The notes under the pieces were generated by a model, which was not told the DNA's origin, ran no database searches, and saw only the letters and a program-made list of their open reading frames with translations. This document shows positions 28,514 to 48,310 of a DNA stretch of 64,000 bases, one piece after another; position 1 is the first letter of the stretch, and every line of letters begins with the position of its first letter. The position numbers and the translations under genes are program-made. The stretch is taken from the NCBI GenBank assembly GCA_026770025.1, contig JAMXDE010000010.1, forward strand, positions 1,054,001 through 1,118,000. The letters are read 5' to 3'. This stretch comes from Craspedostauros australis (taxonomy: Eukaryota > Bacillariophyta > Bacillariophyceae > Mastogloiales > Achnanthaceae).

Positions 28514-30153
28514 TCTCCACTCTTCGCTCTTGGTACCAACCAGTTGGAGTAATCTCTGGAGAGAGAAAGAGAAAGAGAGAGCAGGGTGATTGAAAGTGCG
28601 TCGTGTCGCTTGATTGCAGTTGCACTGCTTGAATCTGCTTCAGTCCGCCGCAGCCTGCTTCAGCTTCCTTGAATCTGCTTCAGTCCCCTCTCCCACGAAT
28701 GTGCTGATGCGAGTTTGATTGTGGATTGACACTCTATCGCGGTTTCGGTTATGATTGCGAAGGGTGGGACGATGACAGCTGATGTCTTCCAAATACTCTT
28801 CCTTGCAGCTCCTTCACTGCAGCGCGAAGTGGTGTGGCGCGTGTTGTGGATCGTAGATCGTGTTACCGCGTGCTCTGCACACTCTGTGAGCTCCTTGTTT
28901 TGTCTCCGCCCGGTTCTTTCCCTCCTCTCCATTCTTGGTGCTTGGTTTACCCGCACTCGCACGACCCAAGACTGCAGATCTCTTGTGCTCTCGTCTTCGG
29001 TTTCTGCTTTCTCGTGGTTCTTGTGCCACGCTCCGGACTTCGCAGCCACACGAGCCTTGGGGAAGAGGTGGTGGTTTTGGTTTATCGCGTCGATCGCCCC
29101 AGTTGCGTCTCCGCAAGCCCCCCCCCTGTCCAATCACGTCTATTCCTGTTGTGTGCATTTGCGTGGCAGGAGCCACAAGCGTCACGGTGATGGTGATGTC
29201 TCGCCGCCTGTATTTTCCCTGCTGGTGCTGTTTCTGTCTCTGTCCCTCTCGTCGCGCCTCCACACCCGTCCTTTCCGTGCCTGGGCGGTTCTGACTCCAA
29301 TTCTTTTGTCCGTGTGCGCCAATCCTTGCACAAACGAGAACTCTCGCGCACAACTCGCGGTTTCTTCACACCGTGCGCACAGCACCACGCTCTATTCCCG
29401 TCTTCATCTTCCGTCACTTTGTCGCAACGGAGAATCTCACTCCCGATCGCACAACTCCATTGAAACGCCGTATCGATCCCTCGTGACCCACACGCTTACC
29501 CCCATCTGTCCTTTCAATTCACAAGCCTATTTGCACTACACGACAGCGACACAGATGGGACGCCAGAAACACGCGAAAACGAACCGAGACACTGGCATGG
29601 AGGTACCGAACGTACTGTTTAGTCCATCACAGTTATGCGGAGAAGCAGGCGGACTATGTTTGGAGTCCGGGCAGAATTACAGCATTTATCATCGCTGACA
29701 CAATCCGTCACAATGTGGGAGATGATTGGCGGAGACGCCATCCAAACCTGACACGCTTCTCGCACGCACACACGCAAACAAATCTCAAGGGGGCATCTGG
29801 AACGAGTACCGCATGGTGAAGTCTCAGGCACTGGGCATATCAAAATGGCTTCGTTCGGCATGATTCTCCGTGATGTCACGAGATCGCCAGGAAGACAAGA
29901 CCAAACGTGTCAACTCGTGCGAACACGAAAAGTCACAAGCTTCCACGACTAGAACGAGCCCACGAGTCTAGAGAGCAAACTGCAACTTAGTCTGGTGATA
30001 CTCTACTACTATGCATGCGTGCCTGGCAACAATGTACTCCTTCGGCATGCACACTCGTAACATGTTGATTGTCAGTATGACTAGCCATGGGTAGAAACCT
30101 ATCTTTGGATATCCGTAAGGAAAACAAAAGAACTCGTGAGTCCGTTTAGCGCT
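28514..30153. other. Intergenic region with no supported gene
   Basis: About 1.6 kb upstream of the GDNP-motif gene. A GGAGAGAGAAAGAGAAAGAGAGAG tract at 28557-28580 abuts the gene start, and a TGAATCTGCTTCAGTCC repeat occurs twice around 28630-28687. A 315-codon plus-strand frame (28751-29698) is Ser/Leu/Arg/His-rich, matches nothing, and overlaps a 179-codon antisense frame, so I do not call it. Confidence 0.5.
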
Positions 30154-30201
30154 AAGTGGACGCACCAATCCACTTGCGTAACTGGATTGGTGAGTCCACT
30201 T
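30154..30201. repeat. 18-bp-stem hairpin (inverted repeat)
   Basis: Left arm AAGTGGAC-G-CACCAATCCA (30154-30172) pairs with right arm TGGATTGGTG-A-GTCCACTT (30183-30201), with one mismatch and a 10-nt loop. It stands at the left border of the transposon-rich block. It could be a transposon terminal structure or a foldback/MITE remnant. Confidence 0.8.
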
Positions 30202-30504
30202 ACGAGCACAAAACGACTAATTAGACTACCCTTCTTAGGAGATTGGATTAGTTCGACTTGCCCAACTCGAATATCTCCACCAATTCCTCATGATCTTGTG
30301 CTCACTGCGTGTTTTGTCGTGTTTTTCTTGGAACACAACAACACATGGTGCATTTCCCTCTCGCATTACCTGTGGGTGTCTTCTGCCCATCCGTTGGATT
30401 TCATCTTTCTCCATCTGAAACCCTTCCGATGTTCATTCCACACTGTCGTCCGCAGACATACGAACTATTACAGCATTTTGCATTCCGCATCACTCTGTTG
30501 TATC

Positions 30505-30960
30505 ATGAGTGCTTCAACATCCCTGTTATCCCTCGTGGAACAGAGCGTTGACTGGGCTGATGACAACAGCAACGACAACCACCTTGACCCCAACTGCATT
30601 GATGACGACTTTTACAGTGATCAAGTACTTCATGCTCTGGATGACTTCGAAAGTGATGAGGACACTCACAGCGTGTCAGGATCCAACACCATCAGCACCG
30701 ACAACATTGAGGCTGGTGTATATCGAAGTGGTGATTCCTACATTGCCAAGGGTGCATCATCTGAAACCCTCATTCCAACCATGGCAACACCAACTGCAGA
30801 TGATTCTACCAACAATACTAGCCAGACTACTGCAAGTGCTGCTGCATCCACAACAAATGCAAGCACTCCATGCATGGAGCAAAACCAACCAGAGGCAGAA
30901 CGGCTGGCAAGCATGGATCTTCGTTGGCTCCTTCTTGATCCCAATACCCTCTGTAAACTG
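30505..30960 (+). CDS. Possible first exon of an acidic Ser/Thr-rich protein
   Basis: The frame starts MSASTSLLSLVEQSVDWADD and is rich in Asp, Ser, Thr and Asn, ending ASMDLRWLLLDPNTLCKL just before a donor-like GTAATT at 30961, phase 0. Without splicing it ends eight codons later. Composition is more protein-like than the surrounding ORFs. I find no downstream exon that clearly completes it; the following kilobase is full of stops. It may be the N-terminal exon of a decayed transposon gene. No family recognised. Confidence 0.35.
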
Positions 30961-32587
30961 GTAATTTTACCATGCAAATGCTAGATGTGGGCCCACTGCG
31001 GGATTCTGTCGTGGTTTGCGGACAAATCAAGACTAATCACAACTCAAACTCCAAACCAGCCTCAGCAACCCCTTATGATGCTATATCTAAACACCAACTC
31101 AGTTAAACCATAAACTGAGCATACCATGTGAATACCTGAATGTCAGTGATAGTGAACATCGAACTTAACAATAAATAACTTTAGTCTTAATACCATTTCG
31201 GCCCGTGATATCGCGTGTTGTCACATCGAAAAACTCTGGGTGACACCCACCCACCCCCACTTCACGGTCCATGATCATGCCCTTCCTCATCATATCCATC
31301 GTATCTGAGCACCCCATCGCCTCTATATACTCCCATATCCATCGTCTGGGCACGCCTTCGACTCAGAAAGTCCATATCCATCTCCCCAGGTCGCGATTTC
31401 TGGAATTCAGGATTTCCAAAAATGGACGCAAACTCCGGTCCGCCTTTCTGCAACCAAGATATCTCATCCATCCGACCTTGTTCACCACCACCACGCAGCA
31501 TTCCGGATCCAGTAGGCTTCAGTCAACACACTGGTGCGTCCAAAAGGGCTCGCGAGTGGATACCCATGACGGGCGGCTTGGTTCTGCACTTGTCACCCTT
31601 GAGTTTTTCGATGTTCCAAAATTGACCATCTGTCTTCGGTGGCGAGAGCGACCGCATGTCGCAATGCTTCCGGCGCACACACATTGCTCAATCGACTCTC
31701 CAAGTGATTCTGAGTGCTTCTTGCATGGGAGAGTTGTCCATTTGGTGGATGCGTGGCGTGCCACTGGTGCCCAAAGGAAGGGCATCGGGCTCCGTCACCA
31801 ACCCCAAAAACTCTTGCGATCCACTTCTGCTTGTCGATGACGACCTTGCCACTGCTGGATGGACGCCAAACTTCGTGGGTACCTCCAATATGATCCACTT
31901 CGTGCATATTGCGCATCAATGGTGGCTGGAATGGTCTGTGTTGATCATGCCGCCTCTGTATCTTGTAAGGGCATGTTGAGCGCAAACGACCTTCCTGTTT
32001 CTTTTCACTATATCTCCCTCCATTGGCAGGGTATACATTTGAAACCTCACCCATCCACCATATGAAGCATGGCGGATCCACTGATGTGCTTGGATGCCTT
32101 CATGGAGGCGTGATAGTTGCGGCCCATTCAGCGGCCGTTGCTGAGTGTTGTTGTGGGACGCCATTGTTGTGTTGTTTTGTGTGTGTTTTGTTGTTCAGAT
32201 CGTTGGGGTTTGCGGAAGTTGACCATGTTTCAGACAAATACATGCACATCGACGACTTCGATTATGTTCTTCACGGTGGCGTCGGGTGCGTTAGAATGAC
32301 ATCAGGTTCTTGTTCCATCGTTCTTCACAGAACGTTGTTTGTGGTCACACGAATGATGAGGTTTGGACGACCAGCAGGGCAATTGGAACCGCTCCAACCT
32401 GCTCTCTTGTTGCTGCAATCGTTGATGCATTTTTGCGGCCATGTGCTGTGGGAACATGACCATCATGCTTCTACAGGCACTGTGTCCCTGCAATGTTCCT
32501 TTGTTGTTCACATCTCTGTCATTATCGAGAAAATCGTGTGCACACACACACCAACCCAAGCCATCATTCCATGTTTCGTTCGCCACC
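30961..32587. other. Decayed region, no supported gene
   Basis: About 1.6 kb with many short ORFs. On the minus strand, frames between 32081 and 31262 (for example one ending LEHRKTQG and one reading GGPEFASIFGNPEFQKS) look like fragments of broken coding sequence with frameshifts, but I cannot name them. Confidence 0.4.
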
Positions 32588-35128
32588 ATGATCCGTATTG
32601 GTATTGGCCAATACGTGGAGGTGGCTCCCCATGTCTCCAATGGCAAGTACTTTAATCTGGGCATGACCTTCATTGTCGGCCTGAGCAAGACGGTAAAGAA
32701 TAGGAATGATGAATACGCGGACAGAGGCGATGAACCCCTTGCAGCAGATGAAGAGGCCTTCGTGAAGGTGAATCCTGTTCTCTCGCGAGATCATTGCTAC
32801 GTCGTTCCGGAGTCAATGTGCAGGGTGTGCAACATGGAGGCTCCGGCAAGGGCAACCAAACAGGAACCCAGTGACGCCTTTCCATTACCGTCGTTGCTGT
32901 CTCCCGACCATCACTCTGCCGCCGAGCTCCGCAACCTCATGACTGCAGCTCCCAGCGCCACCCAGAAAGAAGCAGAGAAACCGGAAATAACGTCAATCCG
33001 ACGCCTTCTAATACGTTGTTTGGATGACAAGGCCGAAGTGCTGGCCGATTTGCAAAAGCATCACAACGACATGAACAAAAGGGGTTGGTTGCGGACGGTT
33101 GTAGGCAGCAGCGGGCAAACAGCACCAAAAGGAAAGAAGCATCTGGATGAGGAAGAGAAAGACAACATCGTCAAGCTTCGTCTCATCCTTGGCTCACCTC
33201 CCTTTCTCATCAGTTGCATTGCGCATGCATGGGGTGTAGACAGGAGCTGCGTTTCGCGCGTGTTGAAAGATTTCCGCGAAGGCAATATGGAACAGAAGAA
33301 GCGCGATGACGCTGGGCTTTCTGTGTTCACAAGCATGCGCATACAAGCTCAACACTTCACAGCTCGGAAAGCCTTCGAGAGGATGTTGCATGCAGACAAC
33401 ACTGGGCAGAAACTGAACAAAGAATACATCGACATGGCTTTCGCCAATGCGACAACGGACCAAAAGAAGGCTGCAGAGGACCTTGCGAAGGAGTGGCATG
33501 ACTGTGGTCCGCACCTCCTGAGCGATCTTCAATAGGTGTTGCAGAGGTCCAGAGGAGCCCTATCCTGGCGGGACATTGCAAGCGAAATCGCGGGAAGTGG
33601 AACAGTGCAGATTGTCAGTCCCATGTCCATCCGAAAGTTTGTACTGGGGCTCGAAGGCAGCAAGTACACATCCACCAGAATCCTCCCCTTCCTCAGCAAA
33701 GGTACAGTGCAGAAGCGCATCAATTGGGCCAACGAGTTCTGCATGTTCTGGGAGTCAGCGAAGCACTTCAAAAACATGCAAGTGATTGTTGTTCACATGG
33801 ATGAGAAGTGGTTCTGGTCGATCGTTGGACGAAAGCACATCAAGTCCATGAGAAATTGAAGGTGAAACCAGTTGTGCACCATTGTCAACATTGCAACCAC
33901 TTGGTCAAGACTATGGCCATTGCTTCTTCCGCCTTTGTGCCCAATAACAACTGTCTTGAGAAGGGCGGAACGGCGCACCTCTTGAACTTCGAACAAGTTG
34001 GTCATTGGAAGGTCGCGATGAAGGATTCGTTTGGCCGCGTCTACGACAGCAGGGGCAACTACAAATGCCCACCAACCCCAGAGAACCGCTTGAGGAAGAA
34101 AGGTGAGCGCAGGTGGCAAGCGCTGGAGATCACAGGGACCAAAGAAGAAGTGAACAGCAAGAAGAAGTTCAGTCTCAAAAAGTACTTCGAGACCTGGGAG
34201 ATCCCAGCCATCCATGATCTTGTTGCCAGAGTCCGCGGAGACAACAAAGAGATGCGAGTTGTTGTTCGCTACCAAATGGATGGTGCAGGGCCTCATCAAA
34301 ACCAGGAACTGCTGGAGTTCATCAACGAATGGTTCAAAGGCCTCGGTTGGCATCTCCGCATTCAACCTCCAAACTCCCCGATCACCAATGTCAATGAAAT
34401 GACAACTGCGTCTTCCCCGTATTGTCGCGTATTGTGTCATCATACCAATCCAGAAACCACGGAAGCAACATCATGTCGTCTGAAGAATTGTGGTAGGCTT
34501 CCCTGAAGTGCTGAGAGCACTTGTCACTCAAGACGCTTGCCACTGCCTACATTCGTCACCACCAAATTGCTTACGTGATCAGTGCCTGCAAAGGCAGCGA
34601 CAAGTTCGTGACAGAATCCAGAGGGCTCAGGATGAACGTGACCAAGAGGCAAGTCCCGATGAAAGATGAAGATGGACAAGTCATTGGCGTGGAGTACACC
34701 AACATGGAATTGGCGCGCCCAGTGCGGGATGAAACGAAGAGCGACAGCAACAAACTGAAATACAAGAAACCGAATGTGGAGGCCACTCGCGAGCAGATCC
34801 TTCAGAAGATGAGCGTGGCAGAATTGAGCTGCATCGAGCAACACCATGGGGAACTCTGTGACACTGAGAGAGAGAGGAACTGGCTGCCATGATCAAAAAG
34901 AACATTGAGCAACAGGATAAAGATAGTAAGCAACCTGCAAAGGCAACCAGCAAGAGGAAGGGCAAGGACGGAACGAAGACAACATCAAGGCCCTTGAAGA
35001 AGGCGAAGACCAGCAGCAACAAGATCACAGCAAAGGCAACTGCGAAGCCATGCAAGAGCGAGGGAGTAGTCACAAGAGCGCGAGCAACAGCCTTCCGGTT
35101 GAATGGCCACAAGAGAGTCAGCATGTAG
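32588..35128 (+). pseudogene. Tc1/mariner-like transposase, broken
   Basis: Cut-and-paste DDE transposase remnant. It starts at GCCACCATG (32588, good start context). A helix-turn-helix-like stretch reads SCIAHAWGVDRSCVSRVLKDF (about 33213-33275). After an in-frame TAG at 33533-33535 the same frame continues to VIVVHMDEKWFW (about 33785-33820), the first-Asp block of this superfamily. A frameshift near 33850 leads to VVVRYQMDGAGPHQNQ (second Asp, about 34257-34305) and IQPPNSPITNVNEM (about 34363-34400), where the Asp usual after NSP is Ile. A second shift near 34400-34520 leads to a frame (34521-34892) with SLKTLATAYIRHHQIAYVI, and a Lys-rich tail follows (34889-35128). With one nonsense codon, at least two frameshifts and a lost acidic residue it cannot encode an active enzyme. 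Terminal inverted repeats were not found by eye. Confidence 0.75.
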
Positions 35129-37239
35129 CCGCTGCATCCCGAAGAAGTAGAGTAATACGATACATTTATTTGCATTTCGTAGAACAACAACAGATCGCGC
35201 ATGCGCGCTGATGGTTGTATTAGCGCACGCTAAATCTCTAACAATAGCGACACCCGTCGACCAATCAGAAATCTCCACTTTTCTTACCTTTTCCGTTCCG
35301 AACGGAAATTTTGGTCAAAAATCCGTTGTGTCAGATTTGTGTCGCATTTCGCGTCGCAAGAATCGTTTTCCCTCAATCACAGATCCAAAAATGTCGCGGA
35401 AATTGATTTCTTGCCAAGATGAGCCAATCTGCCCAATCAGGACAGACTTGGATCTTGGGTGTGACACGTGCGAATCTTGCCATGACCTTCTCAAGTGAAT
35501 ACGATCAATCGTGTGATCGTACTACTAGCAACATCGTGAGAAGACGTAATTCGCAACACGGGCTATCGCGGTGTTTTGTTCATTGACTTTTGCACCTCAT
35601 CTTCACGCAGTAACACGCACATTTGCCGTGTTGTCTCCGTGTTAATTTCACTTGCAATTTGCATGAGACCTGTCATGTCTCTCTCATGCTCACAGTTCCA
35701 AGAAGACAATCTTGTGAGCTCGACAGCATTCCAACTACCATACGAATAATACAGTAAACAAACACTCTCCTCACCAACAACAACGACTTGATCACTCTAC
35801 GTTCTCGGTGCGGTATCCTTCACACCCATCTACGATTACGTTCTAACAGGTTGTGTGTGATGTCGATGTGCGTGGCTTGTGTGAATTTGGTTTGGGCGCG
35901 GAGTTCTGCGTGATGTTGACATGGATGTTGATGGTTTGTGTGTGTTTTTGTTGGTGATGGGTTGAGCGAGTTTGGGCGTGGGCATCGCGAGTTCTGCATG
36001 ATGCGGATGGCTTGTGTGTGTTTGTTGGAAATCCGGGGTGGTGTGATAGTAGAAAACTAATCGTTTGTTAGAATCTACTTCTCTGAACTGTGAGCTCTTC
36101 ATTGCTCTCAATCTCAAAGTTCGATCTCCTCCTGAGATCACCATGGGTCCCTCCGTTGGTCTAGCAGGCATTCATCTTGCATTCATTGCAAGTTCATCAT
36201 GGACATGCATGCACCACCGAGTACCCCATGTTCGTGCACAAAAGCACGTTGTCCTCCACTGATAGTTTCGATGCTTTAGACATCGCCAAGTCGTAGGCAT
36301 CACACAGGTCGGTCCATTCAACCAGATCACGGTCTCCCATTCGTCACGGGAACATCTCGGTTGGGAGCTCATTCAGCTCCTCGACCATCACACATCTCCG
36401 ATCATCTCCGATGTTTCGCCTGTCGTCTTCTCCGCTTACTTCGCCGATCACTTCACCGGCTTCCTGGAGGTTCCTCATACCAGGTTCGTTCATAGGCCAT
36501 CTCACACTTCGTGACATCGGTCTTCCTCCAGTACTCTTTTCTCATTGGTTGCGACATGGGGGCCGTAGTCGCTCGTATCGTGATGTTGGTCACGATTCCA
36601 ACATCCCTGCCCCCTGCGACATTCACGTGTGATTGGCATTCCTGTATTGAGGTCACGAACGCCAAGGTACGGTTCGCATTCGGCACGTGTCGTTCTCCAT
36701 CATCAGAACACGTGCAGCTCACATTTTTCTGTCACAAAGATCCAAAGGTGGGAGTTGCGGTAATGTAGCATATCATGACATTCGGCTCCTTACTCCTGGG
36801 AGGTGCGGCAATATGGTGTTTCAGAACACCCGATTCCTGACATGTGTTTTTGTTGGTGCTTGTGTGTGTGTGCTGTGGCTTGGTTGTGCGGGCTTTTGTA
36901 CGCGTGACCATAAAAATGCGCGCAACGCGCAGATTTGGGCATGAAAAGTGACTCTCTGTTCCGAGTGAATTCTCGGCAGATTTCGTCCAGGTTCGGAACA
37001 AAACCATTGATATGTACGAGGTTTGTTCCATGTTTCGAGCTCTGTATTCGTGACTGTTTTTCAAAACGGGAATCCAGGGAACAAATCTAGAAACAGCCTG
37101 TAGATAGCAATTGCCGCTACCCCCACTTGAGAAACAGGAGGAGGTAATCACGACCCAAAACAAGAGAAACCCCACTACTAGCTTTTGCGTGGTGAAATTA
37201 CCTGTTTACTGACTTGGTAATGAAGAGTTCACAGTTTCA
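35129..37239. other. Transposon debris, no supported gene
   Basis: About 2.1 kb. One frame near 36290-36500 reads TQVGPFNQITVSHSSREHLG and ADHFTGFLEVPHTRF and continues an adjacent frame (EYPMFVHKSTLSSTDSFDALDIAKS) after a shift, so it is probably broken coding sequence of unknown origin. The rest has frequent stops and TG-rich stretches (35850-36050, 36840-36890). Confidence 0.4.
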
Positions 37240-38495
37240 GTGGGAAATGCCCATCATTACACATACAAATTGCATTGTGATGAGGTTCATCAACTTAGAT
37301 GTACCACCTTGGATCTATGTGGTTCCCCAAACCCATCCATTGCCCAGTTGATTGACCTGATCTTTGGGCTTGGATCTCTGCTTTACATGTCAGCTTTTGC
37401 ATCCTCTCCCATCAGGATGTTGCAAATGGAGTACCTTCAATTCCTCCTTGGGTTTGCATATCAAGTATGACACAACTGCATGGTTTGGGACATGTTCGAT
37501 AACAATGAAGCATTGGATTCCATTGTTGGGTTTCCATCCTTGAAGCTGTACAATGCCTTGTGGCAGAGGATTGAGAAAGATGGCAAAATGAAGAAGGTTT
37601 TTCTGGAGCAAGCTGCAATGCAATGCAACTGCGGCTTGGAGAAATTGTATTGTGTGGAATGAACAAAGAGTGGGTAGTCACACTTGACAACAACAAGGTT
37701 CATTCCCATAGCAAGGGATCAACAAGCGGTCTGATCATAAAGCGGCACACCCAAGCAAACAGACCTGGGTAAGTACTCTCGCTTTTCCCGATCTTTTCCA
37801 TTCTTCACATTCTCATGATATCATGCTCAACGTCTTCCTCTCTCCTCTTTTTCGCAACTTCAGCCCTGTTGGCATCACTGGCGTTCTAACAGCTTCTGCT
37901 GTACCCTCCGCGATCGCATTTCTGAGAGAGCGCCACAAAGACAACTGCAAATCCACCATTGAGATCATCAAGGAGCAGTTTGCCAACAACAACACTGAAC
38001 TCAATGACACTCTCATGATGATGGATCGCGGTTTCATCAACCTCAAGCTGGTTCTGCAACTTCTTGAACTTGGTGCAGAGATCCAGGGCACCCATAAGAG
38101 GACCAGATATCTTCCGTTTGGATATGGTCCTCACAGTACCATCAATAAAAAGCAGATTAACATCCATCCATTTAGTCCCAAACGTCTCTGGGTTGCTATC
38201 TCCACCAAGATCTCTGGAAGGCTGTTCGAATGTGTTGCTTACCACAACAATGGCAAGTTTGTGCTTACGGTCTCTACCACGCCTCAGGGGTTTGCGTGAG
38301 ATCTGACACTCCAACACCCCACTGATGAAAAGAAGTGCAATGCTTGGTTGTCCGCACCACCCGACGCCGATTTCAAGTCTGACCGCTTCCACCAGCACTT
38401 CTCTCTCATGCTCTCGTGCCTGCACCGTTCTCCAAAGGTTGCAGCGGTGTATGTGAAAGAACACTATCGAAAAAGTCACGAGGGGAGAGCAAAAG
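37240..38495 (+). pseudogene. PiggyBac-like DDE transposase, 5' half, truncated
   Basis: Frames are broken but colinear with the minus-strand element at 41984-46316. Segments: MGNAHHYTYKLH... (37240-37470, stop), DMFDNNEALDSIVGFPSLKLYNALWQ (37480-37662, stop), EWVVTLDNNKVHSH...RHTQANRPG (about 37668-37768; D codon 37686-37688, candidate first catalytic Asp), a clean 95-bp intron (37769-37863, GTAAGT...TTCAG, phase 2), then PVGITGVLTASAVPSAIAFLR and MMMDRGF (D codon 38024-38026, candidate second Asp) with GTHKRTRYLPFGYG after it. Intact frame ends at 38299; frame-shifted residue-like sequence continues to about 38495, where a tRNA-like relic and then a copia fragment begin. The 3' half, including any nuclease module, is missing. 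Assignment to PiggyBac is by motif layout (MD-x-G...GT-x-KR) and not certain. Confidence 0.65.
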
Positions 38496-38500
38496 CAAAG

Positions 38501-38569
38501 TACCATGCTGGGATTCGAACCCGGAACCTCAGCGAGAATTATTGGTGCTCTACCGTTGAGCTGCAGGCA
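38501..38569 (-). tRNA. tRNA-like relic (pseudo-tRNA)
   Basis: Read on the minus strand, a perfect D-arm (GCTCAACGGTAGAGC, matching box A) and a T-arm with GGTTCGAATCC (box B) are spaced as in a tRNA, about 69 nt in total. The anticodon stem pairs poorly and the acceptor arms (TGCCTGC against CATGGTA) pair at only about four of seven positions, so it is not a functional tRNA as I read it. It may be a decayed tRNA or a tRNA-derived SINE head. It lies exactly between the truncated PiggyBac-like element and the copia fragment. Confidence 0.5.
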
Positions 38570-38573
38570 TTAC

Positions 38574-40876
38574 GATTGCTGATCCGAACACAAGTGAAAT
38601 TTATAGATAGTGGGGGCTACGGGAGTAACGTAATTTGCACTATACATATTTGTGCTGATACTGACGAAGCCAATGGTCAACTGATGGGGCCAAGGCGCAT
38701 CCATCCTGACCTCACACAGGCAGAGCAGGACCGTTTGCACACCATCCTTTCCCTTGATGCCAAGGCAGACAAAGTCGAGGCGATCGTGTACGGTCCATGC
38801 ATGGATAACACAATGCGAAGAGTCATCAGACATCATGACAACCAACTACTCATAGAATGGATGGACGGTTCCTACAGTTGGCACCATATGGACGAGGTCC
38901 GACTGCAACACCCCATATTCGTCATGCAATACATACAACGCAACCAGCTCATGACCACTCCGCCTTTTGTTTGGATCAATGCATTCAACACCATCAACAA
39001 GCAGGTCCTTGCTGCAACAAAGCCGCAATCCAAGGTGCGATACAAGTTCGGCATACAAGTGCCCAACAACATCCGACATGCGTTGTACTTGGACAAGGTC
39101 AACGGTGATTCACAATGGAAGGATGCAATTGCAAAGGAAATGGGACAAATCAATTTGTACCAGACGATTCGCAGCCCTACCAACGACGACGATCTCAACA
39201 CATACAAGTGCATTCCGTACCATATCGTCTTTGACGTCAAATTCGACCTGCGATGCAAAGCCCGATTGGTTGCAAATGGCAACATGTCTGATCCATCTGT
39301 CGAGGATGTATACTCCGGAGTCGTCACATTCAAAACAATGCGTATTGCATTCATCATCGCCGCGATGAACGGATTGCAGGTGTGTGCTGGAGACGTGGGG
39401 AAAGCATTCTTGTATGCGAAGACACAAGAACGGTGCAACGTCATTGCGGGACCAGAGTTTGGCAACAAGCAGGGGCAGCCGCTCATCATCCACAAGGGAT
39501 TGTATGGGCTCCGGACATCAAGCGCCCGCTTTCATGAGCACTTGGCTCAATCGTTCCATGAGATGGGGTTCCAACCAACACCATACGATGCGGACCTGTG
39601 GATATGTGCCCAGGAAGACCATTACGAGATGATCGCAACGTATGTTGACGATGTGCTGGTGTTCAGCCGACATTCCATGGATGTCATGAATGTGCTCAAG
39701 TCGAAATATGTGATGAAAGGCGTTGGTACCCCAATGTACTATCTTGGAGGCAACGTTGAGCAACTGGACGATGCATGGCAACAAGACGGAATCTTCACTG
39801 CATTGTCGGCGCGAACCTACATCGGGACAGCATGTGAAAAGATCGAATCGCTGACTCAGCAACAACTCCCACGATACAGAACTCCGATGGCGGAATCCTA
39901 CCATGCAGAGTTGGATGATTCACCCTTATTAGATTCAGGGGCGGCCAACAAATTTTGCACGATGATTGGATGCGCCAACTGGATCATCACATTGGGTCGG
40001 TTCGATATCCAATTTGCCACGATGACCTTATCAAGATTTTCCATGGTTCCTCGCGAAGGACACATGAAAGCCATGTTCCGTGTGTTTGGATACCTGAAGG
40101 GACATCGCAACAGCTGCATTCTATGTGATCCCACCATACCCGATCACAACAAACACACATCGCATGAGAGTGACAAATGAACCAAGTACTATCCATATGC
40201 TCATGAGGAGTTGCCCCACAAGATGCCCACTCCAAAGAGTAAGGAAGCACACATCACCGTTCATGTGGATGCCGACCATGCACATGATGCTGTTACTCGC
40301 CGTTCGGTTACAGGCATCATCGTCAAGATCAACGGGATGATCGTCCGTACCTACTGCAAGCGCCAAAGCACGGTAGAATCATCAACATATGGTTCTGAGC
40401 TCGTCGCTGCCCGTATTGCAACCGACATGATCATGGAGATTCGCACAGCCCTACGCGTCTTTGGGGTTCCTCTTGCTAGGCCTGATCTGCTCCTCGGTGA
40501 CAACAAATCGGTGGTGTTAAACACAACTATACCTTCCAGCGTCCTCAAAAAGAAACACTGTGGGATCGCGTATCACCGAATCCAGGAAGCCATTGCCGCC
40601 AAAGCCATTCGATTCATTCACATTTCATCGGATCAAAACGAAGCCGACATCCTCACAAAACCTGTGTCAAAGGCATCGTTCTACCGAGTCGTCAATGCCA
40701 CACTATTCAGAACTCCACATCATCTCTCGCAAATCAAGAAAGCCACGGCGAACCCACCAGCTGACCCTACCGCAATATACCTGGAGTCAACAAAGACCAT
40801 TCACTTTGTATACATCGATCAGCCCAACCAAGCTGAGTCCACCATGCATGTGCTGAAGGGGCATATTGGAGCCTGA
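38574..40876 (+). mobile_element. Ty1/copia retrotransposon fragment: reverse transcriptase and RNase H
   Basis: LTR-retrotransposon polyprotein remnant. The frame opens upstream at 38348 through unrelated sequence; element-like protein begins around 38640 with the integrase-RT linker. RT shows SQWKDAIAKEM, VFDVKFDLRCKARLVANG, AGDVGKAFLYAK, LIIHKGLYGLRTSSARFHEHL and the catalytic YVDD (39641-39652). A single in-frame TGA at 40178-40180 interrupts the protein; the same frame continues with RNase H: HVDADHAHD, the Glu in TVESSTYGSEL, LLGDNKSVV, and KKKHCGIAYHRIQEA...EADILTKPV, ending at 40876. Gag, protease and the integrase core are absent, and no LTR is recognisable. The RT and RNase H core residues are intact, so decay is modest. 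It resembles the copia elements abundant in diatoms. Confidence 0.9.
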
Positions 40877-41983
40877 GCAGCAGTCAGATCCAGGTAGTTG
40901 GAAAACACATCACAGAAACCGAACAGATCACAAGAAAGGAACAAAAACGCATCAACCAGATGGAATAGCCATAATCCTCACTCGAATTAACCATTACATC
41001 AAGTTACGTACCACTCTGACTATACCTATGCTTCAATACAGTCAGTGATCTTCTGGTGGCTGGACCAACAAACATGACAGCAGACAATGCAAATCTGGAC
41101 ATGACAGAGGCCCATTGCTCCACAGACTTCCAGAACCTGAAGAGCCTGAGATACAAACATGCCAAAACAACACTGATGCCATGGTTCATGAATCCACAGA
41201 ACAGTTGGACGAACAGGTACACCAATGTTGGAAATCCGGGAAACCCAGTCTCTAGTATAGTATCTGATTACCTATTCCTATTGTTGCATTGTTGGAACTA
41301 TGAGCACAACATCTCCATCTCTTTCAATGCCATTTGCCATAGCATGCAGAATCCACAGTAGCACACAGTCTTGCCCTTGCTCATGTAGTGCTGTCTCCTG
41401 CTTCATCATGTCATGCAGCATGTACTCCATGTACTTCATGTACATCTCATCATGCACATCATCATCTATTTCAGTAGTTTCATTTTGCTCTACATTCATG
41501 TCCTACATACTGCAGTCATGCATTCATTTTGTCACAGGTTTTGTCTCAATCCTGTGGCATCCTTGATTCCACCTGTTTTACAATTGATCGGTTCTGATTG
41601 TTTTCTGGATCTTTCTGATTGTTCAATCATATGATTGATCTTGTCCGTCAGGAGCACGGATTGCGTCCCTATATGTTGGTTTCTGTTTCTTCGGGTGGGA
41701 TACGACCCCTACCCACTGCCCCTGTGCCCCTTCTGGTTAGACATCACCGACCAGGTTGTTGGTTTGTAGGTTCATGTTGGGACATGTTTTTTCATTGTTA
41801 TGGTTCTCAGACCAAAGGAGGACAGGCTACATTGAGTTGCACAACTGGTTGTAGAATGAGGTGGGACACACTACAAGGTGGTCCGAGTGTGATCAACGAA
41901 AGATGATTCTATTGAGTCGTGATTGATACCATTGGGAAGTGCGGTAGTAATGGTTATTTTGACAAAGTCATACCCTCGATTCC
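40877..41983. other. 3' flank of the copia fragment, no gene seen
   Basis: About 1.1 kb, AT-richer than the host genes. It could include a copia 3' LTR, but no matching 5' copy is present to prove it. A minus-strand frame (41499-41278) is rich in Met, Glu and Asp but unassigned. Confidence 0.4.
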
Positions 41984-44900
41984 TCAAACCAATTCTGCAG
42001 GTTCCTCTGCAGTTTTTGCGTTCGTGATCGCCCTATTTGCGGCATGTCGCTTCTTTCTGATGTCTTCGGCTTTCTCCTGCATTGCCGCGTTGTCTCGATC
42101 CTTGTAGTTCAACCTGACCTTGCCACACCATTCCTGTGGATCTCCATGGAGTACATAATGGCATGTGTTTTCAACATCCACTGCCTCCCCCTTCACCACA
42201 AAGTTGCAAAGGGCAAATGAGGGTGAGAGTCCATCCATCTTCAGCCACTCACTCTTTTGCTTGCCAACAGTGGAGCACACAAACATGTGACATCCAGGGT
42301 AAAGCCAATGGATTGCGCCTCCACAGACCACACAGGTACCTTGCTTGTTTATACAACTCAATGGGACATGGTTGCCACAACCCATGTTTGCTTGGATATT
42401 GCTGTCTTGAGGGATTTCTGCTGTCATCTTCACGTTCAGAAGCTCTTGCACTTTCTCAGGGGTCACTGGATTCTGGGAGGTTGGTGGATTGCCTATGAAT
42501 AGGTGTGGCAAACCTTGGGGATCTTTCTGCAGTATTCTGAGACTTGGCAAGCATGTGATGATGATCTCCTTGCTTGGACATTCTCATTCTACTCACAGTG
42601 TCTAGCCAACATGTTATGAAGGCACGCATTGATCTTGAGCATGGACCCTTGGAAGCTCCACCTTTGGTTCACTCTGTTGCAGTAGTGGCCCAGGGTGGGG
42701 CACGTGACTACATCAGAGTTTTCCATGTGTCTGTTGGGGGTCGACATGCTGATTGAGCTTGTGGATTACAATGAACATGACTTTCAGCAGATGTGCCACT
42801 GCAGAACAGCCCATTGTTGGGTATGGAAGTAGCGATGTTTGTGACTGCATCATCCTTGACATAATGTCAGACCCACTCTTCAGAGCATTCCACAGCAAGA
42901 AGGTTTTGGGGATGAATGTTTTGACTTGGGGTACAGGGAAGCTCAAGGTCTTGTGACAGGCCTTTCAGATGCACACTTCATGCATGAGATTGTCTTCTGT
43001 GAGGTTTGCCAGGACTTCGTTGCATCCACAGAAATGTGCACGTCCGGATGTTGCATGAAGAAACCTTGTCATGAGAGTATAGGATGGTGTAGCAATTGCT
43101 CCTTCTGTTGGTATTGGCTGGTACGCATACTCCAACAGCATTCTGTACATGACCTTCAACACCATGCCATATGCAGTAAGAAGTCGGCTTCCGAATGTAG
43201 TTGGTGACTGTCAAAATGACGGTGAGGGATGCGTTCATCGTGGTGCTCACCAATCACAAGGAGGGCATCGGGTACACCGTAGACAAACGAATCGTGAAGA
43301 AACTAGATCGACTCTTCACATCTGGAGAATGTAGCCCTGAAGTGCATATCCTGAGACGACAAGTATGCATGCTTCTCCAGTTGGCAACCCCGTGCTTGTC
43401 TCTCTTTTTGGAACTCCTCTTCCTTCTGCTTGGTCGTCAGGGAAGCTCTTGTCTTCATTTCCACGACGATCACTCTCTCTCTCTCTGCAGCGTTGTCGTC
43501 TTCCCTCCCAATCACTCCAAGGAAGTCCACTGATGCAAGAGCATACGTCTGGACCTTCTTGCAAACCAGCCCCACTTGGTATGCTGCTCTGACCCATGTG
43601 TTTGGTCCAAACATGTTACTGCATTCCATGGCTACCTCCATGATGGGATCCTCATTGTCAAGACCAAGTTGGATGGGTTCTCCTGCCTCTCCTTTACATG
43701 GTTTCATGTACCAGGAAGTGAGGCATTGCTTCATCAACTTCATTTGTAGTGCCAACAAGGATTGGTTCCCACCTGCAGTCTCATGACTGCAGCTGGCTTG
43801 TGCTTCTCTCCTGACCTCATCTGCTAATTTGATCCCATCATCCTTGATTAGGAGCTTTCTAATTCTCTCTGCAGTACCTTTTCCTTCTTTGTCTGCAGAA
43901 ATCGACAACCAAACGCCATCCTCGGCCCAACTGATGTCATGATTGCATACCTCTGTTCGAATTTACACTCCGCCTCCAGAATTTCTTTCAGCTTTGAAAA
44001 CGAGCCTATCAAATGCTCAAGCAGCCTTGTTGCCATACAACAGTTGAAGCAGTGAGCAAACCTCGTCTTCTGTTTGGGTCTTGGACTGCACACTGCAGCC
44101 ACAGACGATTGCATGAAGCAATGCCTGCTCATCTGACAGTGTCTGTTGGTGTCCCATCGTCTCTTTGCCATGATACTGATCCCCATTGCTTCCACCATGA
44201 TTGTTGGGAGCTACTTCACATGCAGTTGTCCTCCCAGAAGTATCAATCTGCTTCTTCAATTCATTCTGAATGTTGCTTTCCAGTGGGGTTGCATCAAGTG
44301 TGGATGAGTCAGAGCCTTGTAGAAGGACAGTGCTTTCTTGCTCTTGCTCTGTGCTCTCTTGGTGCTGCTGGGATCTCTGCACTTCTGCTCAAGGTCAATA
44401 TCTGTGTACTCTGCAAAAATCCCCCATGATGGTCCATCAAAGCTGTTCTTGTTTGCCTTGTCCACCCATTCCTCAGACTGAAAGACTTCCCATGGCAAGT
44501 TGTAGATGAATGAGCTTGTGAATGAAAACTAGTGAAGCAAGAACCAGATTGGGTCTCTCTGAACACTGGTCAGTCCGTCCACATCCAGCTGGTGAATCGT
44601 GGTGGCCCATTGTTTGAAAGCTTCCTGTTTCTTCTGGTTGATGTTGTGTTGGATTGATTTGATGCTCGTTGTGGCAGTCTCTCTGTCCTTGTATGTGTCA
44701 GTGGAAAGAGGCAGATTGTCTGCTTCAACCAAGTTGTGCTCTGCTGTGTTGACAGCCACACATGTTGAATGGTTTGAAGCAAAGTGAGAGAAGCACTGCG
44801 GGAAAGAGTCTGTCATTACGTCTGCATCTTCTGATGCATTTTGAAGATTGATGTTCCTCATCTCGTCCCGACAATAAACCAGTGCAAAGTCCCAATCAAA

Positions 44901-46316
44901 CCCACCACTGGCTGTGTCGACCCCCCATGACAACTTTGCCATTTTCATAGAAGGCATAGCATGTGAACTGGCCTTGCCGCATACTTTCTGTTGTGGCCAC
45001 CCACACATGCCGAATCCCAACCTCAGGAATGTTCATCTGGCCCTCAGGCCGTTTGTCTCTGTTTCCAAACTTGAATGGCATGTGCCCTTCACGCTTCTGT
45101 GTGCCCATGACTTTGGCTCCAAGTGTGAGCAGTTGCTCCACAATCTCCTGGCACATGCAACCACAATTGATGAGGACTGTCACATCTTCCAACCACAGTA
45201 TGTCCTTCCCCAGATGCTGCTTCATTGTCTCTATGTTGAAGGTGTTGTCATGGCCTCTTGACTTTCGCACCCAGAATATGCCACATGGCATTCCTGATGA
45301 GGTGAATGCCATGGTGTTGGCAATGGTTCTTTGGTAGGTAGTGAAGTGAAGTTGCATGTGGAGGAAATCAAAGCAAGAGAAGCGTGAGCTGGATGATGGG
45401 TTTGGGGTTGGAGAGAGTGTTGAGCACATATTCAATAGACCACTTACCCATATCAGTTGGCCTGTATGTGGCGCACCCTTTGCAGATTGCTGGTATGTGC
45501 GCGCCTGTAACATTTGACCTTGTCATTGTCCAATGTGACATACTTTGCTGCTGTCATGTTTCGCAACACAAAGAGCTTGAGCACCTCATTGACGCTGCTC
45601 TCAAGATTTTACCGCAGATAGGTTGGCTGATCACTCTCTGGTCAAACAGCATTCACATAGATGAGCTCCCATACTTGTTGGTATTCCTGTTGTGTTGGAA
45701 GCCCATTGCCACATGTGAGAATTGCAGTATTGTAGAGGTCTTTCACTGATAGCTGAAAGCACTCTTGGGTGGTAAATCCCACCATGAATTAAAGGAAGTT
45801 CTTGTACCCCATTCCCAAGCCTGAGGGACCAAATGCAGATGTGAAGATGTGAGAATGCTCCCCAAAAACAAATGTAACAATGTCCAAAGTGCATGGTTGC
45901 AGCTTCTTTGTGTTGAGGGAAGTTCTTGATCAGATTTGGATGGCTTCTGACACCATGTGCTTTCGAGACTGCTGTGTCCCAGCACTGACAGAGATGGCAA
46001 CCCTGCTTATTTGCCAGTTTTGAAGAACCCAGGACATCTTCATTTGTTTCACACCTGCAGCATCAAGGTTGTGTTGCTTCTGTGATGGGAGGTTGACAAT
46101 GCTTGGTGTGTGGATGTTGCTGGCTTTGTTGATGACATGAGATCCTGCTGATGAAGTTCTCAGGTTTCCATTTTTGTGCAGCCCAGCAAATTCTGGAGGA
46201 CTTTGAGACACCTCATTGGGTTCCAACTGCATTCCAAAGTTGGCAGCAAGTTTTGACACTGATGTGGCTGCATTACATGAGAGGTGGCTTGTGGCTTGTG
46301 GCATGGGAAAGCGCAC
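41984..46316 (-). pseudogene. PiggyBac-like transposase with embedded YqaJ-like nuclease, decayed
   Basis: Reading 5' to 3' on the minus strand: an N-terminal stretch (46316-45930); fragments around 45890-45640; KYVTLDNDKVK (about 45540, equivalent of the VVTLDNNKVH block at 37.7 kb) then HIQAN; an intron (45447-45329, GTAAGT...AAAG, phase 2) at the same codon as in the plus-strand copy; TIANTMAFTSSGMPCGIFWVRKS and GAKVMGTQKREGHMPFKFG (45513-44896), where the second Asp position reads as INCGC instead of MDRGF; a long helical linker (45020-44017); a PD-(D/E)XK module (43908-43303); a tail with WNALKSGSDIMSRMMQ (about 42880), which I read as the counterpart of the third-Asp region; and a C-terminal Cys-rich block with CVVCGG (42550-41984). 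Several stops and frameshifts show it is dead. Confidence 0.65.
43303..43908 (-). other. YqaJ-like PD-(D/E)XK nuclease module within the transposase
   Basis: A 201-codon open frame. Order and spacing match YqaJ/lambda-exonuclease-like nucleases: LGLDNEDPIMEVA (Glu 43651-43653), then QVGLVCKK, then LASVDFLGVI (Asp 43525-43527, normally S-P-D-G), then VIVVEMKTRASL (Glu 43459-43461, Lys 43453-43455). Known family members are recombination exonucleases. It lies between the GTQKR block and the GSD block of the host transposase rather than at an end. Whether the intact element used it for excision, end processing or something else is unknown. Confidence 0.6.
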
Positions 46317-47294
46317 TGCTTGCTTCCTCAGAACATCTGTGGCTGGTCATGTGATGGTATGCATAGTTGCTGTGATTGTTGATGTTTGAACTGCTGGAAG
46401 GTGGAAGTCATGTGTTGAACGACTAGAAGTGCTGATGCCCATCCTGACAGTTTGGTGGGCATTTGCATGTAGCTATGCGAAGCAGGGAAAATGTTTGGCG
46501 CAATTGCAAGTAGTGCAAGCCATCATGTGCGGAAGAACACAACAACGTTGATGGGTGCGAGAACAAGCCACCCGAAGGACGGAAAACAGCGTGCAAAATC
46601 CCGAAACGTTGCACACATGCCAATTTTGTTTCGCGATGTTGGTGTGCACAATCGCAGGAAGTGGCTGCTGGAGCGAAGCTGCAAGAGGGCAACGGTGACC
46701 GAACATGAAGATAACGAGCAACGAAGGAAAGCAACGACAGAGTATTCAAATTGAAAACGCATTTTCCCACGGCTTAAGTAAAACAGCATAAATAAATAAA
46801 TTGTGTATGTCAAGACCGTGTGTCAAGGCCGGCACGCGACAGACGGAGGATCACCAACACCAAATTCACCCGGATATGAAAAAGGAAGGAGTGCTGGGCC
46901 TAGTCGGTTTAGTCGTCAAACGACCATACAGTCGAACGAGGTTCAATTTGACTCTCCAGTCGTTTCAAAGCACAGTTAACTGTGTAGCTGAGCTATGTAG
47001 AGGTTGACTCCACAGTCGAGCAAAACCTCAGCATGGATATCTGAACGTTGTCGCTTTGGTTGGATCAATCAATACGCGCTTCTGTTTTGAATGCAAACAC
47101 GTCGGCACGCAACGAAGCTCAAGTCCTTGGTTTCCTCCTCAGCTCGCATTGTCTGGGCATTCTTCATGGTGTGGGATCCAACCCCAAATGCGACGCAGAC
47201 ACTCGCGTGCTCTTTGTCTTGATCCGCTTGGTGGTTCATGGTTCTTGCTAAATTCGGCGATGGAGGATTCGACACTGTTGTTGATATTGGTATC
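46317..47294. other. Transposon flank, no gene seen
   Basis: About 1 kb of mixed sequence with short ORFs on both strands and no recognisable product. Confidence 0.4.
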
Positions 47295-47528
47295 TGTTGT
47301 ATTGTGTTGTATTGTGTTGTATTGTGTTGTATTGTGTTGTGTTGTATTGTGTTGTATTGTGTTGTATTGTGTTGTATTGTGTTGTATTGTGTTGTATTGT
47401 GTTGTATTGTGTTGTATTGTGTTGTATTGTGTTGTGTTGTGTTGTGTTGTGTTGTGTTGTGTTGTGTTGTGTTGTGTTGTGTTGTGTTGTGTTGTGCTGT
47501 GTTGTGTTGTGTTGTGTTGTGTTGTGTT
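47295..47528. repeat. Pentanucleotide array (TTGTG/TTGTA)n, 234 bp
   Basis: The left part is a 10-bp higher-order unit (TTGTGTTGTA); the right part is nearly pure TTGTG. It is open in several frames, which produces long artificial Cys/Val/Leu or Asn/Thr/Gln 'ORFs' that are not genes. Confidence 0.98.
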
Positions 47529-48310
47529 ATTGTTGTGGTTGTTGGTGCATGATCCCATCTCTTTCTTTGGTTGCATTCAAAGATAGAGAGAGGATGATCC
47601 AACTTGCTGCATTCTGTTCTTGGGAGTGTTGTCAAGAAGCAGCAATCCAGAGTGGCCACAACATGTGCAGGTCTATATGGGAGTCCCGAGAAACAATTCA
47701 AAACAGGATCAACGGCTGGGTCTCGTTTTCATTCACGATCGATGTATTTTCTGTTTTGAACCAAAACGGGAAAATGAAAACAGCAAAGGAGGAAACTTGT
47801 TTCTGGAACGTGAATAGAGGTGATTCTGCCGTTTTCACTCATTTGGGAGAAACTGTGCTCATAAGTTACAAAATAAAGCACAAAAAGTAGAACTGCACGA
47901 AAATGCCCAACAAAGAACAAGACGTCGTTTCAATGTCATGAAGGGATACGCTAAGTCCACACACTTCGACCTTTCCGATCGAGAATGAAGTCGTACTCGT
48001 CATTGATAGAACCCCCAGACGCCATGGAGTGCCATGCCTATTCGTATGCAGTTGTCGTAAAGCTACTATAGGGGAGAATTGAGTTGAACACCCTTCCCTT
48101 CATTGGGGAGACAACCCACAGTTGATTTTCCCAACTTCAACGTCTCCATACCGAGTATTGCAGTCAAGCGTGATGTCGATGAGCTCATGCAGCATGCTGA
48201 TTCAAATGCTGCACAAGCTACTCTTTCAGTCCTTGTCGCCACACACCAGCTAGTTTTATCGTTGTGTGCTTTTGTTTTTCTTCTTTGCCGTCACTGTGGC
48301 AGAGCGAAGC
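47529..48310. other. Intergenic, no gene seen
   Basis: About 780 bp to the stop of the sulfotransferase gene, with short overlapping ORFs only. Part is antisense or 3' flank of the next gene. Confidence 0.5.

Follow-up and report, generated by a model that had tools for sequence, protein, structure and literature searches.

In a 64,000-nucleotide stretch of the diatom Craspedostauros australis genome (contig JAMXDE010000010.1, positions 1,054,001 to 1,118,000), hereafter called the window, the minus strand between about 42 and 46 kb carries the remains of a transposase gene interrupted by a nuclease-like reading frame. Judged from its sequence, this locus is a decayed member of a multi-copy DNA transposon family. 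Comparison with its relatives elsewhere in the genome indicates that the family very probably encodes one protein, a DDD transposase (catalytic aspartates D1, D2, and D3) with a YqaJ-like nuclease between D2 and D3. The features of the window copy are as follows:

40965-47040, minus strand: whole element, probable extent, with degenerate ends that are tentative
45447-46100, minus strand: exon 1 remnant with the first-Asp block LDNDK, its first D at about 45528-45530 (tblastn, 55% identity to copy L012)
45324-43246, minus strand: exon 2 remnant in total, the GTQKR block and then the nuclease
44923-45324, minus strand: exon 2 start, with the second-Asp block at about 45166-45168 and the GTQKR block (tblastn and family alignments)
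44307-44936, minus strand: exon 2 middle, with the end of the DDE part and the N-terminal YqaJ-like motif (tblastn, profile match)
43303-43908, minus strand: 201-codon frame representing the nuclease core (open reading frame, family alignment, profile match)
43246-43302, minus strand: remaining nuclease core to the exon 2 end (FLHDSFVYGVPDALLVIG), past one stop (tblastn)
41996-43201, minus strand: exon 3 remnant with the third-Asp block KSGSDIMSR (D at about 42866-42868) and the Cys-rich C-terminus (tblastn, alignments)

The first-pass annotation of the window had described a minus-strand frame with the series NE...SVD...EMK inside a DDE layout of LDNDK, GTQKR, and GSDIMSR blocks and a Cys-rich end. 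The frame was recovered with its residues where the annotation had placed them (E of NE at 43651-43653, D of SVD at 43525-43527, and E and K of EMK at 43459-43461 and 43453-43455), and it lies far beyond chance, because as a 201-residue query it had 91 matches in its own genome, self included, of which the best others (48% identical, E ~4e-46) sit within open frames of ~720 codons. The coding remnant spans 46.1-42.0 kb, and its parts, including the blocks and the Cys-rich end, were collinear with an intact relative by tblastn at 39-56% identity, with stops and frame changes interrupting the reading. The blocks of the DDE layout therefore stand, while its second catalytic aspartate does not: DRGY of the intact copies reads NCGC here, D2 is lost, and the window copy should consequently not be active. 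The N-terminal YqaJ-like motif, DxLWFxxRKFxLTSS in intact copies, runs from ~44555 downward and contains a stop. The element probably extends past the interval originally assigned, 41984 to 46316, and reaches from GATTATGGCTAT at 40965 to ATATCCATGCTGA at 47040, with 2 mismatches at each end relative to the intact termini (ATAT followed by CCATAATGA on one side, TCATTATGG followed by ATAT on the other). These ends are tentative because ~3 chance matches to a shorter, 12-base end pattern are expected in the window.

Relatives were sought in the window's own genome (74.8 Mb, 90 contigs). Using the nuclease of copy L024 as a query gave 106 rows that merged into 91 places, while the D2 region of the same copy gave 70 places, and at 62 of these a nuclease lay on the same strand, 0.72-2.33 kb further downstream. 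Two of the eight D2 places lacking a nuclease were read: L058, where an apparent 2220-codon frame runs into an N stretch, and a truncated second copy within the window itself. Conversely, 28 of the 91 nuclease places had no upstream D2 match, and the two that were read turned out to be L059, a copy with an internal deletion and no D1 or D2 match, and L029, a decayed copy. No relatives were found in the viral contigs or prokaryote genomes searched.

Twenty loci of 10 kb were then taken for close reading, and the SVD/SID motif of the nuclease and a Q-LHH motif were present in all of them, the D1 block in 19, and the D3 block in 19. Thirteen loci were spliced in silico; L010, L011, L014, L015, and L017 were omitted as close to L009, L012, or L016, and L013 and L018 for want of a D1 or D3 block. 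In all 13 spliced copies, exon 2 is a single open frame in which the DRG block and the nuclease lie together, and D2 and the nuclease would therefore be part of one protein irrespective of splicing. Both introns were readable as GT-AG in the 13 copies: intron 1 (94-179 bases, phase 2) lies between D1 and D2, and intron 2 (113-153 bases, phase 1) where the nuclease core ends on its C-terminal side, the YqaJ match running on past the junction (...GALMVIG before it, D... after it) for a few residues of exon 3. Intron donors fell at the identical place in all groups; acceptors were chosen among frame-keeping AGs, at four loci by eye, and the constant phase is thus partly by construction, since they were picked to fit the frame. 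I infer that the three exons are spliced into one protein. Because the exon with D2 and the nuclease is open and GT-AG introns join it to the D1 and D3 exons, the nuclease is not a separate gene. Intact relatives of the kind anticipated by the first-pass annotation thus exist as 13 copies with an open D2-nuclease exon, and its placement of a YqaJ-like nuclease between the D2 and D3 regions is borne out by the shared exon, the introns, and profile matches to both parts; the refuting case of a separately encoded nuclease was rejected on the shared exon of the 13 copies and on the 62 of 70 D2 places with a nuclease downstream.

The spliced copies fall into several diverged groups that are ~30-36% identical to L012 across exon 2. 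DDDK, DRG, and KGGSD are invariant in 13 of 13, and the C-terminal pattern C-x2-C ... C-x2-C ... C ... N-x-C-x4-H is largely invariant across the 13 rows. One subgroup consists of many closely similar copies. L059 (C12:501773), which keeps the nuclease and the D3 region, and nine similar places (C16:1397463, C17:104108, C28:473790, C32:644872, C39:176466, C62:99362, C64:69701, C2:36727, and C14:1519602) look like an amplified deletion derivative, of which L059 was the member read. A 72-base tandem repeat (a STSTPVTDSIINANNSPNQR-like unit) occupies the 5' part of L009, L010, L012, and L015-L017 and varies in length between copies; in L012 the exon 1 frame enters this repeat in frame, and the repeat may either be part of the coding sequence or serve as an array of terminal binding sites.

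The inserted domain was compared by hhalign with a reference profile of 10 phage YqaJ/RecE proteins (from 40 listed of 83 records) plus the host gene L036 (C25:34761), which looks like an ordinary single gene; a second host gene, L037 (C37:237978), was excluded. The nuclease core matched this profile with an expectation value (E) of 5.3e-6 and a score of 46.0, which was reached by none of 50 shuffles (largest 20.8), and the G-x-x-E, D, E-x-K, and Q motifs coincided with those of YqaJ/RecE. The DxLWFxxRKFxLTSS block gave a separate match to the N-terminal W-R-TxS block of YqaJ (E 2.7e-4, 0/100 shuffles). In control pairs, shuffles scored as high in 6/50 cases for the nuclease against piggyBac, in 37/50 for the D1-D2 region against YqaJ, and in 2/50 for the D3 part against YqaJ. 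The catalytic E, D, E, and K were invariant in 15 of 15 rows, window included, that are 36-55% identical to the window copy. The insert therefore appears to be a YqaJ/lambda-exonuclease-like PD-(D/E)XK domain, with both the fold and the nuclease activity presumed from the conserved motifs.

The ratio of nonsynonymous to synonymous substitution rates (dN/dS) was estimated for pairs of copies. For the nuclease core it was 0.34 (L009/L016), 0.30 (L012/L016), 0.14 (L025/L028), and 0.14 (L026/L028), and for the D1-D2 region of the same pairs 0.26, 0.29, 0.31, and 0.33. In three distant pairs with (nearly) saturated dS, dN was 0.24-0.32 for the nuclease versus 0.20-0.42 for D1-D2. The nuclease core is thus under purifying selection and seems to be kept about as carefully as the transposase.

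Canonical piggyBac elements are present in the same genome, where PF13843 gave 160 matches (best E 1.8e-42) that count pieces and not whole copies. The family profiles held 12 of the 13 spliced copies, L009 being excluded as near L012, and the D1-D2 region (12 rows) was taken from 190 residues before D1 up to the start of the nuclease part. The piggyBac profile consisted of the two copies of canonical group A and stretches of piggyBac and piggyBat, with the second PF13843-positive group excluded. Over 270 columns the D1-D2 region matched this profile at E 6.8e-5 and a score of 44.6; none of 50 column shuffles reached the score (largest 21.3), and the reversed profile scored 19.0. The first D of DDDK falls on D268 and the D of DRGY on D346, the GT(x)R block is aligned, and the last aligned piggyBac residue is 420. 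Against group A alone the match had P 0.004, while the two PF13843-positive groups matched each other at 0.024. The D3 block with a short profile gave a weak match (E 0.048, 0/100 shuffles) that sets KGGSD on the GVD block of piggyBac. The nuclease is accordingly located approximately where piggyBac has residues 421-432, beside the target-touching strands, with limits at ~420 and 433, the second of which rests on the weak D3 match. Taken together, the comparison supports homology of the D1-D2 part with the piggyBac catalytic region. A direct link between piggyBac and the nuclease at L029 (C22:46301-51300) was considered and rejected: the upstream PF13843 frame is a canonical piggyBac fragment beside a decayed copy.

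The ends of the element were determined from several copies. On the 3' side, closely similar copies can be aligned as far as ...GGATAT. A pattern search recovered four complete copies of 6.5-7.6 kb (L011, L014, L020, and L022), with ends that begin CCATAATGA or CCGTAAGGA, share CC(A/G)TAA, and occur in two forms, CCGTAAGG and CCATAATG. The terminal inverted repeats of piggyBac are short and begin CC(C/Y). All four complete copies have ATAT at both ends, but this is not independent evidence because the search pattern itself contained ATAT. The case is carried by the empty site of L022: its flanks, joined by a single ATAT, had 10 uninterrupted counterparts, 93-100% identical and in one case 100%, while the filled site matched in two pieces, 1-114 and 111-224, whose overlap is exactly ATAT. 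As judged from this one empty site, a 4-bp ATAT target duplication is shown instead of the TTAA that the first-pass annotation had suggested looking for. At the left flank of L020, ATAT was included in 39 of 40 rows, own locus counted. The piggyBac assignment of that annotation consequently holds for the D1-D2 homology and fails for TTAA and PF13843; because the target duplication is ATAT and not TTAA, the family is called piggyBac-like here rather than canonical piggyBac. As a further observation on the ends, elements of related types directly adjoin one another at L011, L014, and L020, and at L011 and L020 the neighbouring element starts directly after a single common ATAT, as if target duplications were re-used as targets.

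Several results weigh against a piggyBac-like transposase with an inserted YqaJ-like nuclease. No Pfam model reached its cut-off for the family proteins (13 exon-2 and 13 exon-3 members, the single scans, and the consensus); PF13843 and PF09588 did not appear, and the DDE part gave sub-threshold DDE_Tnp_1 and DDE_Tnp_1_3 matches only. The genome-wide PF09588 search listed only L036 and L037, both outside the family, and PDB searches found no solved structure that the family proteins convincingly matched. With an initial YqaJ profile of two rows the nuclease match was not significant (P 0.2), nor was that of D1-D2 against the second PF13843-positive group (P 0.29). The long D3 profile was equalled by 2/50 shuffles, the same as in the YqaJ control. 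In the pair L009/L012, with very few changes, nuclease dN/dS was 1.15 (dN 0.010, dS 0.008) and D1-D2 dN/dS 0.03. At the right flank of L013, the first base was covered by 2/33 rows, one of which was its own locus.

Set beside known systems, the family shares with piggyBac (T. ni piggyBac, piggyBat, and the PF13843-positive copies in the same genome) the equivalents of D268 and D346, the GT(x)R block, a weakly matching KGGxD block, a C-terminus whose Cys-rich character resembles that of piggyBac by eye, ends that start CC, and a 4-bp self-complementary target duplication. It differs in having roughly 580-1000 residues, including a YqaJ-like nuclease that replaces the 421-432 loop of piggyBac, in duplicating ATAT instead of TTAA, in having two introns, and in staying under every Pfam cut-off. 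With YqaJ/RecE/lambda-type exonucleases (PF09588; phage proteins L039-L048) the inserted domain shares the motif order W-R-TxS, G-x-x-E, D, E-x-K, Q; unlike these, it is embedded in a transposase, has ~25 extra residues between ExK and Q relative to L039, and is not matched by PF09588. In Tn7, TnsA is a PD-(D/E)XK nuclease and TnsB a DDE transposase, two separate bacterial proteins; the likeness is a functional analogy only, in that a nuclease of this type partners a DDE-type transposase.

Two eukaryotic systems are closer in content. ISL2EU is described as a PHIS-type DDE transposon with an AT duplication and a YqaJ exonuclease domain in a second open reading frame, whose function was called unknown in 2015 (PMC4482050). 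In KolobokE, a nuclease is described downstream of the transposase domain, and Kolobok elements generate TTAA target duplications (PMC9587614). ISL2EU thus resembles the present family as a eukaryotic DDE transposon with a YqaJ exonuclease domain, and differs in that here D2 and the nuclease share one exon and ATAT is duplicated; KolobokE differs in that the nuclease here lies between D2 and D3, again with an ATAT duplication. Both were set apart by description. Insertion into the catalytic domain combined with an ATAT duplication hence differs from either system. Among the publications listed in a literature search there was no piggyBac-like element with an inserted nuclease; Repbase was outside this search, and an unpublished or database-only description is possible. 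Alongside ISL2EU and KolobokE, the few cases met here that tie eukaryotic transposons to recombination exonucleases of phage type, the family would supply one in which the domain is inserted in frame.

The explanation that best accounts for these results overall, and that I consider probable, is a piggyBac-like transposon protein with an inserted exonuclease-like domain, which may act on transposon or donor ends. Such a protein would run from an N-terminal region through the piggyBac-related DDD domain, with the nuclease between D2 and D3, to the Cys-rich C-terminus. The DDD part would cut and join ends at ATAT by piggyBac-like chemistry (a 4-nt self-complementary target and probably hairpin ends), while the nuclease, adjoining the terminal DNA and the target channel, would cut or resect one strand at the ends of the transposon or of the donor. 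This division of labour would resemble that of TnsA and TnsB, but within one chain. In piggyBac, V414, L416, Y439, and N440 contact hairpin bases, strands around the insertion site touch the target tetranucleotide, and an insertion domain lies between D2 and the last acidic residue. Action of the nuclease within the complex, on terminal or donor DNA, is put forward tentatively, at somewhat short of even confidence. A bolder form of the proposal, plausible but held with more reserve, is that a piggyBac-like lineage took up a whole recombination exonuclease in a loop beside its target-contacting strands, which would give two active sites per chain and a target of ATAT rather than TTAA, with the second site performing a reaction step such as second-strand cleavage or hairpin opening. 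Eukaryotic DDE transposases are generally regarded as one-active-site enzymes. A second nuclease site apparently within the catalytic domain, together with a changed target, may be viewed as a natural experiment on 4-bp site choice and seamless excision; since a 4-bp self-complementary target is kept, seamless excision remains possible. The family is testable because many intact copies exist.

The same architecture could serve a different role, a possibility of some weight although I doubt it: once excision is complete, the nuclease may work as a 5'-3' exonuclease, resecting the broken donor or unwanted joining products and so favouring repair by which the element is restored or copied, instead of processing ends during cut and paste. 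Its profile relatives are recombination exonucleases of phages, the subgroup of many closely similar copies fits such a role, and in ISL2EU and KolobokE the nuclease lies outside the transposase core, a placement that would allow a role separate from end chemistry. Against this, the nuclease sits inside the catalytic domain, between the equivalents of strands that in piggyBac touch the target, which suggests action within the transpososome.

It is unlikely that the DDE part belongs to another or a new superfamily that merely resembles piggyBac, in which case the insertion would be no event within piggyBac. The ATAT duplication, the missing PF13843 match, the faint DDE_Tnp_1 and DDE_Tnp_1_3 signals, the weak D3 match, and the unmatched second canonical group all point that way, and the comparison took in sequences of piggyBac type only, among DDE families that also include Kolobok, ISL2EU, and IS4-like elements. 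The collinear 270-column match, which aligns D268, D346, and the GT(x)R block, speaks against it, as does the agreement with group A, which was better than that between the two PF13843-positive groups.

Less probable still is that the inserted domain became a structural or DNA-binding replacement for the piggyBac insertion domain, with its nuclease activity lost or unimportant. DDE enzymes commonly have an insertion domain between D2 and the last acidic residue, piggyBac itself among them, and the activity of the domain inserted here is a prediction; yet its four catalytic residues are invariant across rows as little as 36% identical to the window copy, and the N-terminal YqaJ-like, E, D, ExK, and Q motifs were kept in intact families with (nearly) saturated synonymous sites. 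Chance juxtaposition, by which a nuclease gene or second element inserted into a piggyBac-like copy, is highly improbable and was rejected, for although nested insertions do occur in the window (30949-37221 within the second relative), the nuclease lies downstream on the same strand at 62/70 D2 places and in 13 copies of several diverged groups it shares one open exon with D2.

The second, broken relative in the window lies on the plus strand in two parts:

30109-30948, plus strand: 5' terminus ATATCCGTAAGGA (0 mismatches) and first part of exon 1
37222-38455, plus strand: remaining exon 1, intron 1, and start of exon 2 (DRGF, GTHKR)

On this strand of the window, neither the nuclease nor exon 3 had a match. 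Its two parts (30109-38455 overall) are split by an insertion of ~6.3 kb at 30949-37221, within which the frames 32441-33535 and 33808-34506 resemble a transposase by eye. Copia-type polyprotein-like frames, also recognised by eye, at 38348-40876 (plus strand) adjoin the decayed element, and a long simple array with 10-base periodicity occupies 47240-47584, just upstream of its tentative 5' end. The G+C content of the window is 0.45-0.51 at 30-48 kb versus 0.52-0.57 leftward, marking a transposon-rich island. Elsewhere in the genome, a search with the silicon transporter model PF03842 returned 88 rows (to E 4e-249), which fits a diatom host; 32 rows are near full length, four of them interrupted by internal stops, and 32 appears a very high number for a single genome.

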